Source: Candidatus Methylomirabilis sp.
Lineage (GTDB): Bacteria; Methylomirabilota; Methylomirabilia; Methylomirabilales; JACPAU01
DNA: 40,160 nucleotides
NCBI GenBank assembly: GCA_036000645.1
Contig: DASYVA010000150.1
Location: 1-40,160, forward strand
Direction of reading: 5' to 3'
The translations under genes and the position numbers were made by a program. A model generated the notes under the pieces. It saw only the letters and a list, made by a program, of their open reading frames with translations. It was not told the origin of the DNA and did not search any database. Shown here in pieces: positions 28,029 through 34,784 of this stretch; position 1 is the first letter of the stretch, and the number at the start of each line of letters is the position of its first letter.

Positions 28029-30344
28029 CTAGAAGCGATAAATGAGGCTGAGGGCAATGACGTGGGCGACGTAGTCGTCCACCCGGTCGCCCAGGAAGAC
28101 ATCGAGGGAGGGAGAAACCGTTCCGGCTGCGTTGACGTTCGAGTTGGTCATGAAGGGGTCAAGGTCGTCCGTCTTGAAATTGGACAGGTTGAAGTGCTCG
28201 AAGCGGTACTCGGCCTTCACCGTCAGGTTCTTCACGATGTGATATCGGAGAGCCGCGATGAAGGTCTGGAGGGTGTCCTTGATGTCCGGCCAGTCGACGG
28301 CATTGCCGCCATCCGGTGCGGCCGTCGTGCCGGGGACTCCCGTGGCCCCGGTCTTCGCCTTGGCGATCTCGAGGACATAGGAGAGGCTCGCATCCAGGCG
28401 GTCCGGGATGAGGAGGATGTCCGCCCCGACCCCGGCCGTGTGGACCTGCTCCTCCGAGGTGCTCGACCAGTCGTTCAGCGAGCTGTCCACGGCCACTCCA
28501 CCGGAGACAGGCCGCCACCGGGAGTCTTGCTTGAACTGGATGTTCTCGAAGGTGTACCAGGCCGAGAGTGCGAGCCGCTCGAGGGGGCGGTAGCCGATAT
28601 CGGTCCCGACGCTCCACCGCTCGTCTTCGGTCAGGCCGAGGGTGGTGTCATCGTAGTCCGTCAGGCCGTAGCCGCCGGTGAAGGCCAGGGTAAGGTCGTC
28701 CCGCGGGCTGAACTGGGCCAGGAGGTCCACCTGATTCCGAATCCGGTCGGCCTCGTCGAACTTGCGGAGGAGGGTGGACTGCCCCGTGGTAACGGAGGTG
28801 GAGAAATCCGCCTCGTCGATGATGGTGTGCGCCAAGTGGGCGAAGGTATTGTAGTCGGTGCCGCGCCGGATGCCGAACCGGTAGCCGGCCCTCAGCAACG
28901 CAGAGGCCACCGGCTTGTAGTCGATGGCAGCCTTCCAGGTATGCTCATCCGTCCGGATGACCTCGCGATGGTCACTCCGGTCCCACCGTTCCCACTCGTA
29001 GCCCAGCTTGAGCGTGGCAGGACGGGCGAGCCGGTAGGAAGCATCCAGGCTGGCGTTGTGCGTGCGGTGGTCCATCGGCGTGTTCCCGCGGTCCTCATCC
29101 GAAAGGCTTTGGTCATTCACCACATGCCCGTCGAAGATCAGAAGAGGGATGTTGCTGTCGTAGTCATAGAAGCGGTAGCGGGCGGTCAGGCTCAGGTCCC
29201 GCAGGGGACGGCCTGTCAGGACCAGGTTCGCGAGCAGGGTCCGCACTTCGCCATCAAGGCCACTCGCTGGGAGGGCCAGCGAAGCACCCGCATTACCTGT
29301 GGGGATGTTTGCATTGATCGTATGGGGGACGAAGGGGTCGTTCTGAAACCGCATCCCGTAGGAGAAGGTGCCTGCGAAGCGCGCCGGGAAGTCCACAGGG
29401 AGCGTGACCGCGCCCGAGAGGCGGATGGTGTGGGCAGAGTTATCCGGCGCCAGGTCCGTCCGACCTCGCCCAGGGGTACTCGTTCCGCCGGCACCACTGG
29501 CGGTGAACGCCCCATCCGTCAACTGCAAGGGGTTGTCTATCGCTACCGTGTCCAGATCATTTTCGTAGAAGGAGCCGGTGTAGTCGAGCCGGAGGCTCCA
29601 GGTGTCCCGCGCCACCTGGATCCCCCCGGTCACTTCGTGCGTCCGCTCGTCGATCGGGGCGGCGACGTTGGCGAAGTTGCCCCCCGGACTGGCGAACCCC
29701 ATTCCAAAGGGGCGGGTCCCCTCCTTCTGTTGGACCCAGTAGCTGGTATCGACCTCCAGGTCGGCCAGCGGCCGGTAGAAGAACCCGATTCGGCCGGTCT
29801 GGAGTCGGAAGCGGAGGGGGACGGCGGTCGCCCCGCTCAAGGCGCTCTGGAGGGCCGCGCTCTTCAGAGCGCTCGTCCCCAGCCCTTGAATGGTGCTCTG
29901 TGTGGCGTCGGGGAAGTCCAGGGCCCCGCCCCCCTGGTCGCTATAGAGGGTCCGCGCGGTGTTGCTGAAGACGTGGACGAGCTCGTCGAACTCTAGCTCC
30001 AGCCGGTACCGGCCGTAGCGGCCGCTCGCGACCTCGTAGTGCTGGTCCCGCTCGGCGATGTCGGTGGCTGAGCCCTCGAAGTAGTACTTCCCTTCCTTCC
30101 CCTCCAGGAGGAGCCGGGCGTTCCCGAAGACCCCCGGCCGCTGCTCCCGGTACTCCTCGTACTTGGAGGACCCAAAGGCGCTGGAGCCCTCGGGGACGAA
30201 GCGGCCCCCCACCTCGACCTCGCCCGTCGCGGTAACAACCCCGAGATCGACCTGAGCCGAGGCCACGGACGGGATGGTCAGCAGTACCCCTAGGGCTCCC
30301 GCCAGGCTGGCAACTCCGGGAAACCGCATCCCTCTCGCCCCCAT
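28029..30344 (-). CDS. MtrB/PioB-family outer-membrane beta-barrel
   Basis: 771 residues: signal peptide (to about 31, ending ASA), an opening GEVEVGGRFVPEGSSAFGSSKYEEY typical of the MtrB family (quoted up to 20 at a time: VTATGEVEVGG, FGSSKYEEYREQ), then alternating strands with aromatic girdles and a C-terminal Phe in HVIALSLIYRF. No cysteine occurs in the whole protein, so the CxxC of Shewanella MtrB is missing. MtrB barrels enclose a decaheme cytochrome (MtrA) and let electrons cross the outer membrane in iron reduction or oxidation. The decaheme gene lies 14 nt upstream. ATG at 30329 is an alternative start. Confidence 0.88.
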   Translation of the reverse strand: MGARGMRFPGVASLAGALGVLLTIPSVASAQVDLGVVTATGEVEVGGRFVPEGSSAFGSSKYEEYREQRPGVFGNARLLLEGKEGKYYFEGSATDIAERDQHYEVASGRYGRYRLELEFDELVHVFSNTARTLYSDQGGGALDFPDATQSTIQGLGTSALKSAALQSALSGATAVPLRFRLQTGRIGFFYRPLADLEVDTSYWVQQKEGTRPFGMGFASPGGNFANVAAPIDERTHEVTGGIQVARDTWSLRLDYTGSFYENDLDTVAIDNPLQLTDGAFTASGAGGTSTPGRGRTDLAPDNSAHTIRLSGAVTLPVDFPARFAGTFSYGMRFQNDPFVPHTINANIPTGNAGASLALPASGLDGEVRTLLANLVLTGRPLRDLSLTARYRFYDYDSNIPLLIFDGHVVNDQSLSDEDRGNTPMDHRTHNASLDASYRLARPATLKLGYEWERWDRSDHREVIRTDEHTWKAAIDYKPVASALLRAGYRFGIRRGTDYNTFAHLAHTIIDEADFSTSVTTGQSTLLRKFDEADRIRNQVDLLAQFSPRDDLTLAFTGGYGLTDYDDTTLGLTEDERWSVGTDIGYRPLERLALSAWYTFENIQFKQDSRWRPVSGGVAVDSSLNDWSSTSEEQVHTAGVGADILLIPDRLDASLSYVLEIAKAKTGATGVPGTTAAPDGGNAVDWPDIKDTLQTFIAALRYHIVKNLTVKAEYRFEHFNLSNFKTDDLDPFMTNSNVNAAGTVSPSLDVFLGDRVDDYVAHVIALSLIYRF

Positions 30345-30358
30345 CTCCCGCTCCCTCC

Positions 30359-31282
30359 TCAACGCGTGAAGGCGAAGCCGGACGGATGGTTGGAACCGTG
30401 GATGTTCTGGTGGCACTGGAGGCACGCCCGGCCGATCACGAACTTGTTGGTCGGGAGCCGTGCCTCGGTCGGGTGGCGGCTCTCCACGTGGCACTGCTGG
30501 CAGACCCGCGGCGGGGAGAGCTTCAGCATCTTGTCCCGGACCCCCCCGTGCGGGTCGTGGCAGTTCATGCAGTTTTCAGCGACCGGAGCATGCTCCCAAA
30601 GGAACGGGCCCCGCTTGTCGGCGTGGCACCGGTAGCAGTTGTCGTTGGGAGAGTCCACCGGCAGCAGGGCCTTGCTTACGGTCCCGTGCGGGTTGTGGCA
30701 GGAGGTGCAGGTCATCTTCCCCTCCCGCAGGGGCATGTGGGCGTTCCGGAAGGTCTGGGAGCGGCGGGTCAGGTGGCACTGGGCGCAGGTGTCGATCTCG
30801 CTCGCCTTGGCCAGGAGGGCCTTCTCGGAGGTGCGCTGCATCACCTGATGGCACGAGGTGCAGCCCACGTCCCGCCCTTCGTGCGGGCTCCCCTGCCAGT
30901 AGAGCCGCTTCCCCTTCTCGTGGCAGGTGAGGCAGACGGCGTTTTCCTTTTCGACGGCCTCGGCCGTCTCCCGCCGGAACGTGGTCAGGCCGCCCACTCC
31001 CTTCCCGCCCCCGGCCTCCACGTGCGCCTTCCCGGGCCCGTGGCAGGCCTCGCAGCCCCGCAGCATGAGGGGCGTGCGGGCATTCTGCTCGGTAAAGACC
31101 TTCGCGTGCATGGTCTTGGCGAACGCGTCCTTGAGGGGCTCATGGCAGGTGAGGCAGGTGTCGGAGCCGACGTACCCGTTCGGGGCCTGAGGCTGGGCTG
31201 CGGCAACAGACGGCAAGGAGAGGAACAGCAGACCGAGGAGGAGCAGCGAGGCCCGGAGACCGGGCGGGGGCGCCTCTCTCAT
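30359..31282 (-). CDS. Decaheme c-type cytochrome, DmsE/MtrA family
   Basis: 307 residues with a signal peptide (to about AAAQ) and exactly ten CxxCH motifs: CLTCH, CEACH, CLTCH, CTSCH, CAQCH, CTSCH, CYRCH, CMNCH, CQQCH and CLQCH. The order and the GYVGSDTCLTCHEPLKDAF and NIHGSNHPSG segments match DmsE/MtrA proteins, which sit inside an MtrB barrel as a heme wire. The partner barrel follows directly. No surface decaheme protein (MtrC type) is seen here. ATG at 31282 has GGAGGA 6 nt before it. A sigma-54-type promoter lies 135 nt upstream. Confidence 0.93.
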   Translation of the reverse strand: MREAPPPGLRASLLLLGLLFLSLPSVAAAQPQAPNGYVGSDTCLTCHEPLKDAFAKTMHAKVFTEQNARTPLMLRGCEACHGPGKAHVEAGGGKGVGGLTTFRRETAEAVEKENAVCLTCHEKGKRLYWQGSPHEGRDVGCTSCHQVMQRTSEKALLAKASEIDTCAQCHLTRRSQTFRNAHMPLREGKMTCTSCHNPHGTVSKALLPVDSPNDNCYRCHADKRGPFLWEHAPVAENCMNCHDPHGGVRDKMLKLSPPRVCQQCHVESRHPTEARLPTNKFVIGRACLQCHQNIHGSNHPSGFAFTR

Positions 31283-31416
31283 CGGCACTCCTCCAGCTGG
31301 TTGGTCAGGGGTAGGGAGCCCCTATACCATCGGTCCCTGCGGGCAGTCAACTGCTTTCCTGCCGGTTCCCCGCTTGGTCGTCAGCCGCCGGGCGGCGGTT
31401 GTGGCCGGCGGGGAGA

Positions 31417-31675: not shown

Positions 31676-32527
31676 TCATCGTTGCTGGCTGGGGCCGAAC
31701 CGCGAGATTTCGGCCAGCCGGTCGAGGGAGAGGACCCCCTCGTAGCGCTGGCCCGCGATGATCCAGGTGGGGTACAGCCGGATGCCAAGGCGCGCGCACA
31801 GCTCGGGCCGGGCGCGCGGCCCTCTGGGGTCGCACTCGATGTACGGTAGGAAATCCGCCGCGGGCCCGAACCGGGCCTTCTGCTCCCCGCACGCGGGTCA
31901 CCAGTAGGCGCCGTACATGACGGCTCCGCTGTCAGTAAGGTGCCGGGCAAGGACCTGCGGATACCCGCCGGCCTCCCGCGGGCCGCCCAGCGCGAACCCG
32001 CCGGCGCCGAGGCCAACCGTCGCCAGGGCGGTAACCGCCGCGAGCGCGAAGAGCCGGGTCGGGCCCAGGGGCGGCCGCCGCTCGGTCGGGGCCGGGCGAC
32101 GCACGAGAACCACGGCGAGCAGCGCAACCGCGATGCCGGCCGAGAGGAGACAGGAGGCGCAGAGGGCGCCGATCAAGAAGACTTGGAGCGCCGTAAGCAG
32201 TGCGGAGAAGGAAACCCCCCCCACGGCCAGGAGGAAGGCGGCGAGCCACCGTCGCGCGTCCAGCCCGAGAAGCGCGAGTGTCCCGACCGCCGCGTAGAGC
32301 ATGGCGCCCCAGAGCGCGGTCGGCAGCCCGAGGAAGACGGCATACCGGCTCGCCTGGACGGCTTCGCAGCCGCTGCCGGCCACGCAGAAGGGGGCGCTGC
32401 CGGCTGCGAGCTTGGCGACGGTGAGGGAGCCCGCCAACAGAAGCCCGGCGGCCGAGAGTCCGACGAGCACCCAGTCGGGCCGGGGATTCTCGGATCGCGA
32501 GCGGGGCGCTCTTCTTCCCCTGCTCAT
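31676..32527 (-). CDS. VKOR-thioredoxin fusion, selenocysteine at codon 210 (UPAC)
   Basis: 283 residues when TGA at 31898-31900 is read through. The first part is a vitamin K epoxide reductase domain of four or five helices with loop cysteines 48 and 54 and active-site CASC (Cys123, Cys126). The thioredoxin-like part begins GAVMYGAYW, then TGA, then PACGEQKARFG and ends with PTWIIAGQRYEGVLSLDRL and TGA at 31676. Homologs have YWCPHC, so TGA replaces the attacking Cys. VKOR fusions oxidise thiols in the periplasm using quinone; here it would control cysteines of the many cytochromes encoded beside it. ATG overlaps the upstream stop (ATGA). Confidence 0.9.
31863..31877 (-). promoter_or_regulatory. 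Candidate bacterial SECIS hairpin for the VKOR gene
   Basis: GGCCCG and CGGGCC form a perfect 6-bp stem around GTT, starting 20 nt after the in-frame TGA. A smaller stem (CCCGC-GT-GCGGG) lies directly behind the TGA at 31886-31897. Either or both could position SelB. Confidence 0.5.
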
Positions 32528-33873
32528 CGCCGCCCCGCCTGCGCGACCGCCTCCTCGGCCTTCCGGCGCGACGCCTCGAGGAGCGCCGCGGCGGCCGCGG
32601 GGTTGTGGACCCCCCGGCCCCCCCGCACGAGGGCGAGCGCCTCCCGAGCCTCCCGCGCCAGCGCCTCGGCCTCCGGGACCCGGCGGCCGGCCCGGCGCGC
32701 AGCCCCGACCGCCGCGTCGGCACGCTTGAGAGTATCGCCTGCCCCGGCCGCCTCCCGATCGAGCCCGCTCGTCCACTCCCGGAGGAACTCGAGGTAGGCG
32801 ACGTCGTGGCAGGCGACACACTTGGTGCCGACCGCCCGGCGCGAGTGCCGCTGCGTGAAGTCGTGGCACCCCGTGCAGGAGACGGCGGCGGCCATGCTGT
32901 TCGGCTCGACCTTCACCAGGGCCGTCTGCGTCTCCCCCCGGTAGAAGGCGCTCTGGAGGCGATGACACGCCTCGCAGCGATCGTTCTGGGGATTGTGGTG
33001 GCAGCCGGTGCAGGTGGCGGCCGTGGCGGTGACGGCCTTGTGGACCTCCGGGGAGTGGCAGGCAGTGCAGACCGCGCCGAACTCGGTCACGTGCCGGGCG
33101 TGGGGCACCCTCTGTTTCCCGAAGGCGACCGTCTCGGGGAGCCTGACCCCCGCCCGCTCATGGCAGAGCACCGCGCAGTAGCCGCCCCGGACGAGCGCGT
33201 CCTCGGTCCGGGCCGGCGATGCGCCCAGCAGGGCGAATGCCTCGTCGAGCCACCCGTTGGCGACCTTGAGGAGATCCGCGGCGTAGAAGACGTTGTGCAC
33301 GCCCCGGCCGAGCGCCACGAACTCGACGTTGAAGGCGGCGTCCGCGACCAGCCGCTCCGCGCGCGCCCGCTTCGGCTCCTTCGGATCGGCCTTGACGAGG
33401 GCGGCGCGCGCGCCCTCGAGCTTCGGGGCAAGCACTTCCCGCATCCGGGTCAGGGTCTGCTGCCATCGCTCGAGCATGCCGCGGTACCGCTCCCCGTGGC
33501 AGCCGAGGCAGGCCTGCTCGCTCGGCCGGAAGGTCTGCCCGACGATCCCGGCCCGGCTCCCCGGCTCCTTGGGCACGATGTGGCAGGCCACGCACTCCAC
33601 GCGCACCTGGAACATGTGGCTCGGGATCATGGGGGTCCCTCGCCCCCCCATCCCCAGGTACATGAGGAGGACCCCCCGGTGTTTGCCCTCGTGGCAGTTG
33701 CCGCATGGGAGCTCGCCCGCCCGGTGGGGGGTCGGCGAGGGCGGGGGCTCGGCCGGCGCGGGGGGCCGCAGGGAGGGCCGGGGACCCTGGGCCAGCAGGA
33801 CGGGAGGGCCGGACCGGGCGAGGACCCCAGCCATGAGGCCGCCCACCGCGAGGAGCAGCAGCGACCGCCTCAC
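32524..33873 (-). CDS. Nine-heme periplasmic cytochrome c (eight CxxCH and one CX3CH)
   Basis: 449 residues with a signal peptide (RRSLLLLAVGGLMAGVLA) and a Pro-rich linker. Canonical heme motifs are CGNCH, CVACH, CLGCH, CTACH, CTGCH, CEACH, CTGCH and CVACH; a ninth, CAVLCH, has three residues between the cysteines. The middle of the protein (about 115-230) is a heme-free helical insert, and the C-terminal 90 residues are Ala/Arg/Glu-rich helix. I know no exact family. GTG at 33873 overlaps the upstream stop in GTGA. It likely takes electrons from the NapC-like protein encoded just before. Confidence 0.8.
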   Translation of the reverse strand: MRRSLLLLAVGGLMAGVLARSGPPVLLAQGPRPSLRPPAPAEPPPSPTPHRAGELPCGNCHEGKHRGVLLMYLGMGGRGTPMIPSHMFQVRVECVACHIVPKEPGSRAGIVGQTFRPSEQACLGCHGERYRGMLERWQQTLTRMREVLAPKLEGARAALVKADPKEPKRARAERLVADAAFNVEFVALGRGVHNVFYAADLLKVANGWLDEAFALLGASPARTEDALVRGGYCAVLCHERAGVRLPETVAFGKQRVPHARHVTEFGAVCTACHSPEVHKAVTATAATCTGCHHNPQNDRCEACHRLQSAFYRGETQTALVKVEPNSMAAAVSCTGCHDFTQRHSRRAVGTKCVACHDVAYLEFLREWTSGLDREAAGAGDTLKRADAAVGAARRAGRRVPEAEALAREAREALALVRGGRGVHNPAAAAALLEASRRKAEEAVAQAGRR

Positions 33874-34784
33874 CGGGCCGTGACCTCCCCCCGCAGGGCG
33901 CCGCCCGGGCCAGCCGAGGCCACGGGAATCCCGATCGGCGGCGGAAGCTGGTGCCGGATCTCGGTATGGCACCGCGCGCACTCGATGTTGTGCCCGGCCA
34001 CGTGGAAGTCGTGGAGGAAGGGCGTGTCGCCGTAACGGTCGAGCTTCTCCGGCTGATTGTGGCAGGTAAAGCAGCGCTCCCGTGGCGCTTCCCCCTCCCC
34101 CTGGATGACGTTCAGGTGGCACTTCTGGCAGGCGACACCGCGGCGGACCATCTCCTCGTGGCTGAACCGGACCGAGCCGACCAGGATCTCCCCCTTCGGC
34201 GGTTGGTGGCACCCGGTGCAGCCCGCGATCGGGCTCAGCTCCCGCCCGACCTTCATTCCTTTGAAGTGGCAGAGGAAGCAGGTGGACTCAGTAACCTCGA
34301 TGTGGGTCCCCACGACAATCTGCGAGTGGCAGCTCGTGCAGCGGAGCTGCCGGCCCCGCCGGACCTCCTCGAGGTGCGGGCGGTGGTCGAAGATGATGCC
34401 GCGCTTGTAGACGACTTTCCCTTCGAGGAGGCGCTGCGAGTGGCAGCCCGAGCGGAGGCAGCTCGCGTCCTCCACCTCGGCAAAGGGCTTGGAGCTGTAG
34501 GTCTGCGTGGCCCACTTTGCCACCTGGGCCAGAGCCTGGTACTTGACCCAGAGGGAGTCGCGGAAGCCGGGCGGGTAGTGGCACTCCACGCAGGTCACCG
34601 CATTGTGCTTGGAGGTCTTCCAGGCCGCCACGTAGGGCTTCATGATGTGGCAGGAGTTGCAGAGGAGGGGGCTTGTGCTCACATGGTAGAGGCCGGCCAG
34701 GGCAACGCTCCCCAGCGCCAGGAGGGCCGCCGCGACGATCAGCAGGAGGCGTCTGCGGTGGCGGGCGGGCAGCCGGTCGGTCAC
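33870..34784 (-). CDS. NapC/NirT-like nine-heme membrane cytochrome c (one CX4CH)
   Basis: 304 residues with one N-terminal membrane helix (about 12-33) after a basic lead, and then CNSCHIMKPYVAAWKTSKH, the opening of NapC/NrfH quinol dehydrogenases. Heme motifs: CNSCH, CVECH, CLRSGCH (four residues between cysteines), CTSCH, CFLCH, CTGCH, CQKCH, CFTCH and CARCH. NapC proteins have four hemes, so this is an extended form. It could oxidise or reduce the quinone pool and pass electrons to soluble multiheme proteins. GTG at 34784 overlaps the stop before it. Confidence 0.85.
   Translation of the reverse strand: MTDRLPARHRRRLLLIVAAALLALGSVALAGLYHVSTSPLLCNSCHIMKPYVAAWKTSKHNAVTCVECHYPPGFRDSLWVKYQALAQVAKWATQTYSSKPFAEVEDASCLRSGCHSQRLLEGKVVYKRGIIFDHRPHLEEVRRGRQLRCTSCHSQIVVGTHIEVTESTCFLCHFKGMKVGRELSPIAGCTGCHQPPKGEILVGSVRFSHEEMVRRGVACQKCHLNVIQGEGEAPRERCFTCHNQPEKLDRYGDTPFLHDFHVAGHNIECARCHTEIRHQLPPPIGIPVASAGPGGALRGEVTAR

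Follow-up and report, generated by a model that had tools for sequence, protein, structure and literature searches.

A putative selenocysteine-containing VKOR-thioredoxin fusion in the phylum Methylomirabilota

On the minus strand of the window, by which we mean the whole 40,160-nt stretch of DNA analysed here, lies a frame that would encode a VKOR membrane domain followed by a thioredoxin-like domain, and that is crossed by one in-frame TGA where a cysteine homologue of known structure carries the first residue of its active site. The locus raises the question of whether this codon ends the protein or is read as selenocysteine (Sec), and what a Sec-bearing VKOR might do. The sole in-frame TGA is read in the minus-strand translation as MYGAYW-TGA-PACGEQKARFG. 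The preliminary description of this DNA had the coordinates and letters of the UPAC-encoding gene right, and the strand, which it left unnamed, is minus. The gene starts on the stop of its upstream neighbour (ATGA overlap at 32527-32524) and its own stop is again UGA, so that UGA is not globally reassigned. A standard gene caller would cut members of this family at residue 209, or miss their start. The features of the gene are as follows.

31676-32527, minus strand: Sec-VKOR-Trx gene, 283 residues, ATG at 32527-32525, stop TGA at 31678-31676, translated with TGA as U
31898-31900, minus strand: candidate Sec codon TGA, residue 210, first position of UPAC, aligned to the first Cys of the CPHC of 4nv2
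32108-32473, minus strand: VKOR domain, residues 19-140 (PF07884, E 1.6e-21 to 7.5e-21)
32366-32386, minus strand: VKOR loop cysteines C48 and C54, invariant in 13/13 aligned sequences
32150-32161, minus strand: VKOR CxxC, C123 and C126, invariant in 13/13 aligned sequences
31697-31966, minus strand: thioredoxin-like domain, about residues 188-277 (3kp8: Z 16.6; phmmer E 5.9e-25)

Domain architecture of the fusion protein

That the gene encodes a VKOR-thioredoxin fusion, as first described, is borne out by Pfam, by sequence matches in the PDB and by the predicted fold alike. The window protein scores 75.1 bits against PF07884 (cut-off 27.5), and its best PDB sequence matches are the Synechococcus VKOR-thioredoxin entries 4nv2 and 3kp9 (E about 4e-36). 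In NCBIfam only VKOR-only models responded to the window protein, all of them under their cut-offs. Excerpts from PMC4555120 give the VKOR signature as two loop cysteines, a CxxC and a conserved serine, and all of these are present and invariant among the 13 aligned sequences (C48, C54, S60, C123 and C126), as are C213, C232 and C244, with position 210 being either Cys or Sec. When the protein is aligned with the known VKOR-Trx fusions, a comparison the preliminary description had called for, UPAC falls on the CPHC of 4nv2 and residue 210 on its first active-site cysteine. The Synechococcus homologue (3kp9, 4nv2, 4nv5, 4nv6) thus has the same two-domain order, but carries Cys (CPHC) where the present family would carry Sec (UPAC).

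An AlphaFold2 model (13 sequences, mean pLDDT 83.9, with Cys in place of Sec) predicts helices at residues 19-40, 70-87, 91-119, 124-142 and 156-180, with the thioredoxin-like domain following the fifth. Foldseek placed Synechococcus VKOR chains at the top of its list and VIA-align ranked 4nv2 first (Z 23.0, 36% identity over 248 aligned residues), with a whole-chain rmsd of 11.5, which indicates that the two domains are turned differently from those of 4nv2. Taken singly, each domain superposes on a known structure: the thioredoxin-like part matches 3kp8 with Z 16.6 over 93 residues (rmsd 2.7), and for the VKOR part human VKOR gives Z 15.5 over 132 residues (rmsd 1.8). In VKOR fusions the thioredoxin domain lies on the periplasmic side. 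The five-helix model is consistent with the earlier proposal that this one does too, but the facing itself we infer from the VKOR fusion family.

The TGA codon across the phylum and beyond

With the window protein as query and stops read through, we screened 95 genomes from its phylum. Matches were obtained in 38, comprising 21 TGA forms (the window included), three full-length Cys forms and 14 VKOR-only or partial sequences that were left unclassified. All 21 TGA forms have exactly one in-frame TGA, always at position 1 of the thioredoxin motif, which reads UPAC in 20 and UPVC in one, and the 20 outside the window share 50-65% protein identity with the window protein. The three full-length homologues (L107, L025 and L026) have CPHC, with Cys at the Sec position, such that an in-frame TGA is aligned to a homologous Cys in several organisms. 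The other three genomes of the window's own genus (63, 95 and 64% complete) gave no match to the window protein. A tree of 30 rows built by a quick method, which did not include the short Sec row L108, places all 20 full-length Sec rows on one side of a branch whose SH-aLRT is only 80.

A reading in which the TGA is a true stop, leaving a 209-residue VKOR without a thioredoxin domain and a remainder that is decaying or separate, would follow from the standard code, but we regard it as highly improbable. In the TGA-bearing homologues both protein similarity and a third-position-weighted pattern of substitution persist past the codon, so that the 73 downstream codons are conserved with a coding pattern in 21 genomes, and PTW, C232 and C244 are invariant within them. 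An assembly or sequencing error for TGC or TGT, conceivable in that the window genome is a draft of 239 contigs, is next to impossible given that 21 separate genomes, from several genera and families, have this codon. On this sequence record the TGA is not a local error; it recurs in separate genomes across several genera and families, and because both its position and the offset of the downstream element described below are kept in 21 of 21 homologues, the recurrence exceeds chance.

The machinery for reading such a codon, whose absence would have spoken against Sec, is present in full in the window genome (96.84% complete), where we found tRNA-Sec (76.7 bits, anticodon TCA), SelB (399 bits), SelA (482 bits) and SelD (353 bits). 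The selD gene has one in-frame TGA of its own (L126, G000:C136:7836-8756), so that the selenophosphate synthetase, too, is probably a selenoprotein. A tRNA-Sec scored above cut-off in 18 of the 21 Sec-VKOR genomes and none reached threshold in G080, G038 and G064 (81, 95 and 95% complete), where it may be missing from the assembled sequence or may count against decoding in those organisms. The genome of the CPHC form L107 (G040), of the same class, also has tRNA-Sec, and no multiheme genes lie within 6 kb of that locus. The proposal of Sec at the thioredoxin active site has thus held up across 21 genomes, alongside Sec machinery and a conserved SECIS-like element, and on these sequence grounds Sec is almost certainly inserted at residue 210.

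Beyond the phylum, surveys covered three phyla and 50 genome-contig loci, together a minority of the Sec-using phyla, and yielded Cys forms wherever a full-length fusion was read. In the phylum of a Gammaproteobacteria locus (G095), six of 398 genomes matched, with one full VKOR-Trx that has Cys and five weak matches. In that of a Dehalococcoidia locus (G096), 130 of 400 matched, and the four loci examined comprised two full-length Cys forms and two VKOR-only forms with a TGA behind the domain. In that of an ANGP1 locus (G097), 31 of 43 matched and all 15 loci examined have Cys; one locus from this survey (L156) has a TGA in front of the domain. Of the 50 genome-contig loci, 39 fit the motif pattern, all with Cys, and 11 lacked it, in a scan that favours Cys forms because its seeds contained Cys; 43 of the 50 were dropped from the tree by a length and motif filter.

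A SECIS-like hairpin downstream of the codon

The perfect 6-bp hairpin that the preliminary description had placed 20 nt after the TGA is there, and it holds the longest stretch of the codon alignment in which no nucleotide varies:

31863-31877, minus strand: bSECIS-like hairpin GGCCCG-GUU-CGGGCC, loop at 31871-31869, at the same offset in 21/21
31865-31878, minus strand: 14-nt run AGGCCCGGTTCGGG, invariant in 20/20 full-length Sec sequences

The next longest invariant run after AGGCCCGGTTCGGG is of 8 nt (TGGTGACC, around the TGA) and the third of 5 nt. The element GGCCCG-GUU-CGGGYC starts 20 nt after the TGA in all 21 sequences, with a single change within it, C to U, that keeps the pair as G-U. 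The published bSECIS rules, as excerpted from PMC13188914, ask for a loop of 3-9 nt located 16-37 nt from the UGA with a G in its first two positions, and a stem of 4-16 bp with an energy of at most -7.5 kcal/mol. All 21 sequences satisfy them, with a spacing of 26 nt, the loop GUU, a 6-bp stem and an energy of -10.3 or -7.6 kcal/mol, and so the bSECIS prediction once proposed as a check comes out in favour, though the fold energy of any single sequence is unremarkable. In four stretches, 141, 98, 97 and 29 of 200 shuffles folded at least as well (z-scores 0.55, 0.06, 0.04 and -1.00), and folding energy was rejected as SECIS evidence. Sequence this rich in GC often forms a generic bSECIS-like stem. 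Among synonymous recodings some loose bSECIS-like 6-bp stem appeared in about 34% and the exact element in 3%. The loose rule also admits one Cys homologue, L107, but not L025 or L026, and the exact element is absent from all three. Because the loose rule passes too often, the SECIS argument rests on invariance across genomes. Among conserved codons, 5 of 7 inside the element are codon-invariant versus 2 of 63 outside (Fisher p 3.5e-5, a descriptive value that is overstated because the sequences are related). An Rfam scan of the window returned no matches.

Gene neighbourhood and proposed function

The genes that flank the fusion on the same strand are rich in multiheme cytochromes:

33870-34784, minus strand: multiheme cytochrome, 8 CxxCH, NapC/NirT-type N terminus (CxxCH count and profile scan)
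32524-34212, minus strand: upstream multiheme cytochrome gene, 8 CxxCH, Cytochrome_C7, overlapping the VKOR start
30359-31288, minus strand: downstream decaheme-type cytochrome, 10 CxxCH (CxxCH count and profile scan)
28029-30494, minus strand: MtrB/PioB outer-membrane porin (PF11854, E 5.4e-123)

The gene had been placed at the end of a cytochrome operon, which proved incorrect, in that, after some 390 bp, the same strand continues with the 10-CxxCH gene and the MtrB/PioB porin. From 39620 to 20421, also on the minus strand, we noted a long respiratory run with Rieske, cytochrome b, multiheme cytochrome and MtrB/PioB genes, together with proteins resembling alternative complex III, the names being given mostly by reading; L112 and L114 share some of its stretch from Rieske to MtrB.

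Multiheme neighbours were defined as frames with four or more CxxCH motifs lying no further than 6 kb away, a distance longer than the available flank on at least one side in many loci. We found such genes at 14 of the 21 Sec loci and none at six (four of genus g16, along with L099 and L100). The contig of L023 is too short to call, having 184 bp upstream, and its end looks by eye like the last part of the cytochrome that lies upstream in the window. None of the three Cys loci had multiheme genes beside them, nor did 18 control stretches (186,160 bp) picked by contig number from ten Sec-VKOR genomes. In five loci (the window, L112, L113, L114 and L124) the VKOR-Trx gene comes directly after a homologue of the octaheme-type gene at 32524-34212. 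In L117 and L125, both of genus g16, a rhodanese-type gene adjoins in place of cytochromes. The next gene of L117, on the same strand (L117:9048-10718), has four rhodanese stretches by profile scan, and the neighbour in L125 (L125:7040-8668) is similar in appearance.

We propose, and consider quite likely, that the protein is a clade-wide selenoprotein, a periplasmic disulfide oxidase coupled to quinone in which Sec is the thioredoxin nucleophile. SelA, SelB, SelD and tRNA-Sec would read the UGA as selenocysteine, directed by the hairpin 20 nt downstream, to give a membrane VKOR domain of four core helices and a fifth, fused to a periplasm-facing thioredoxin-like domain with the active site U-P-A-C. 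The Sec-Cys pair would accept electrons from dithiols of exported proteins, Sec210 being the nucleophile that meets client thiols, and would hand them to C48/C54, next to C123/C126 and finally to a quinone; Sec might make thiol exchange faster or more easily reversed. According to excerpts of PMC4555120, VKOR and DsbB enzymes pass electrons from oxidative folding through thioredoxin-like oxidoreductases on to quinones. Because this direction is established for the VKOR/DsbB family, we infer by analogy that electron flow from thiols with quinone as acceptor is probable here. The route from thiols through a thioredoxin-fold domain and membrane cysteines to quinone is shared with the DsbB/DsbA pair described in the same excerpts, but the window protein is a single fused chain with a VKOR fold and Sec, and we do not claim it as a DsbB member.

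As for what it would oxidize, the likely clients are exported cysteine-rich proteins encoded nearby, chief among them, in most members, the multiheme cytochromes that belong to the porin-cytochrome cluster. That cytochromes are the main clients is plausible, if slightly short of an even prospect. The 14 of 21 cytochrome neighbourhoods fit, without proving, a link to cytochrome biogenesis, and the earlier suggestion that the protein tunes thiol state for heme attachment finds multiheme genes near those 14 on its side but must contend with the six loci that lack them; heme attachment would be one possible service of the protein, with a less than even chance. A broader role in sulfur or selenium redox chemistry, unlinked to cytochromes, would suit the four-rhodanese gene directly following in L117 and the look-alike neighbour in L125, but is unlikely given that most members adjoin multiheme genes. 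We find it quite unlikely that the protein is instead a reductase or thiol keeper, holding the CxxCH cysteines of apocytochromes reduced for heme attachment. Multiheme genes at 14 of 21 loci, and a gene start that overlaps the stop of an octaheme-type gene, would agree with such a role, but VKOR flow from thiols to quinone in oxidative folding (excerpts of PMC4555120) runs in the opposite direction, and six loci have no cytochrome neighbours. Returning to the disulfide oxidase, a more daring form of the proposal is an oxidative folding station that depends on selenium and is reserved for porin-multiheme-cytochrome conduits. Its Sec-bearing thioredoxin would deal with the abundant CxxCH thiols of cytochromes bound for export, and their electrons would pass via VKOR to the quinone pool. 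Although speculative and in our view doubtful, such a station would mean that selenium supply sets the amount of extracellular electron-transfer machinery these bacteria can build.

Table 1 of PMC13188914 (2026) lists 119 prokaryotic selenoprotein families, and although numerous UxxC thioredoxin folds are included, as well as multiheme and MtrB/PioB selenoproteins, there is no VKOR family. Its UxxC members (thioredoxin, DsbA-like, DsbG-like and thiol-disulfide isomerase-like) likewise have Sec first in a thioredoxin-fold UxxC, but none is a VKOR or PF07884 protein, whereas the putative Sec domain of the window forms one chain with a quinone-linked membrane oxidase of its own. Neither VKOR nor vitamin K is mentioned in the main text of PMC13188914, PMC9312934 or PMC12013277. 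For papers whose full text pairs VKOR with selenocysteine, selenoprotein, Sec-containing or SECIS, titles and opening lines of abstracts disclosed no bacterial Sec-VKOR, a scope outside which falls the groundwater survey behind a Methylomirabilota MAG with 63 predicted selenoproteins (ref 66, as cited in excerpts of PMC13188914); that survey might already list the family. If confirmed, the protein would add a selenoprotein family and apparently be, within the literature searched, the first case of Sec in a quinone-linked membrane disulfide enzyme of the VKOR type, preserved across a phylum together with a nearly frozen SECIS element, and would make the use of Sec in an oxidative pathway testable.

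Two further genes on the minus strand of the window have an in-frame TGA. The one at 10237-9592 (TGA 9820-9818) encodes a protein disulfide oxidoreductase with UPYC that passes NCBIfam TIGR02187 (PDO_seleno_TRX; 277 bits, cut-off 185), a known selenoprotein family. The other, at 9048-8500 (TGA 8748-8746, LLLGF-U-PGTCAGA), encodes a YeeE/YedE-like sulfur transport protein (PF04143, 43.5 bits) that resembles the YeeE/YedE selenoprotein row of PMC13188914.
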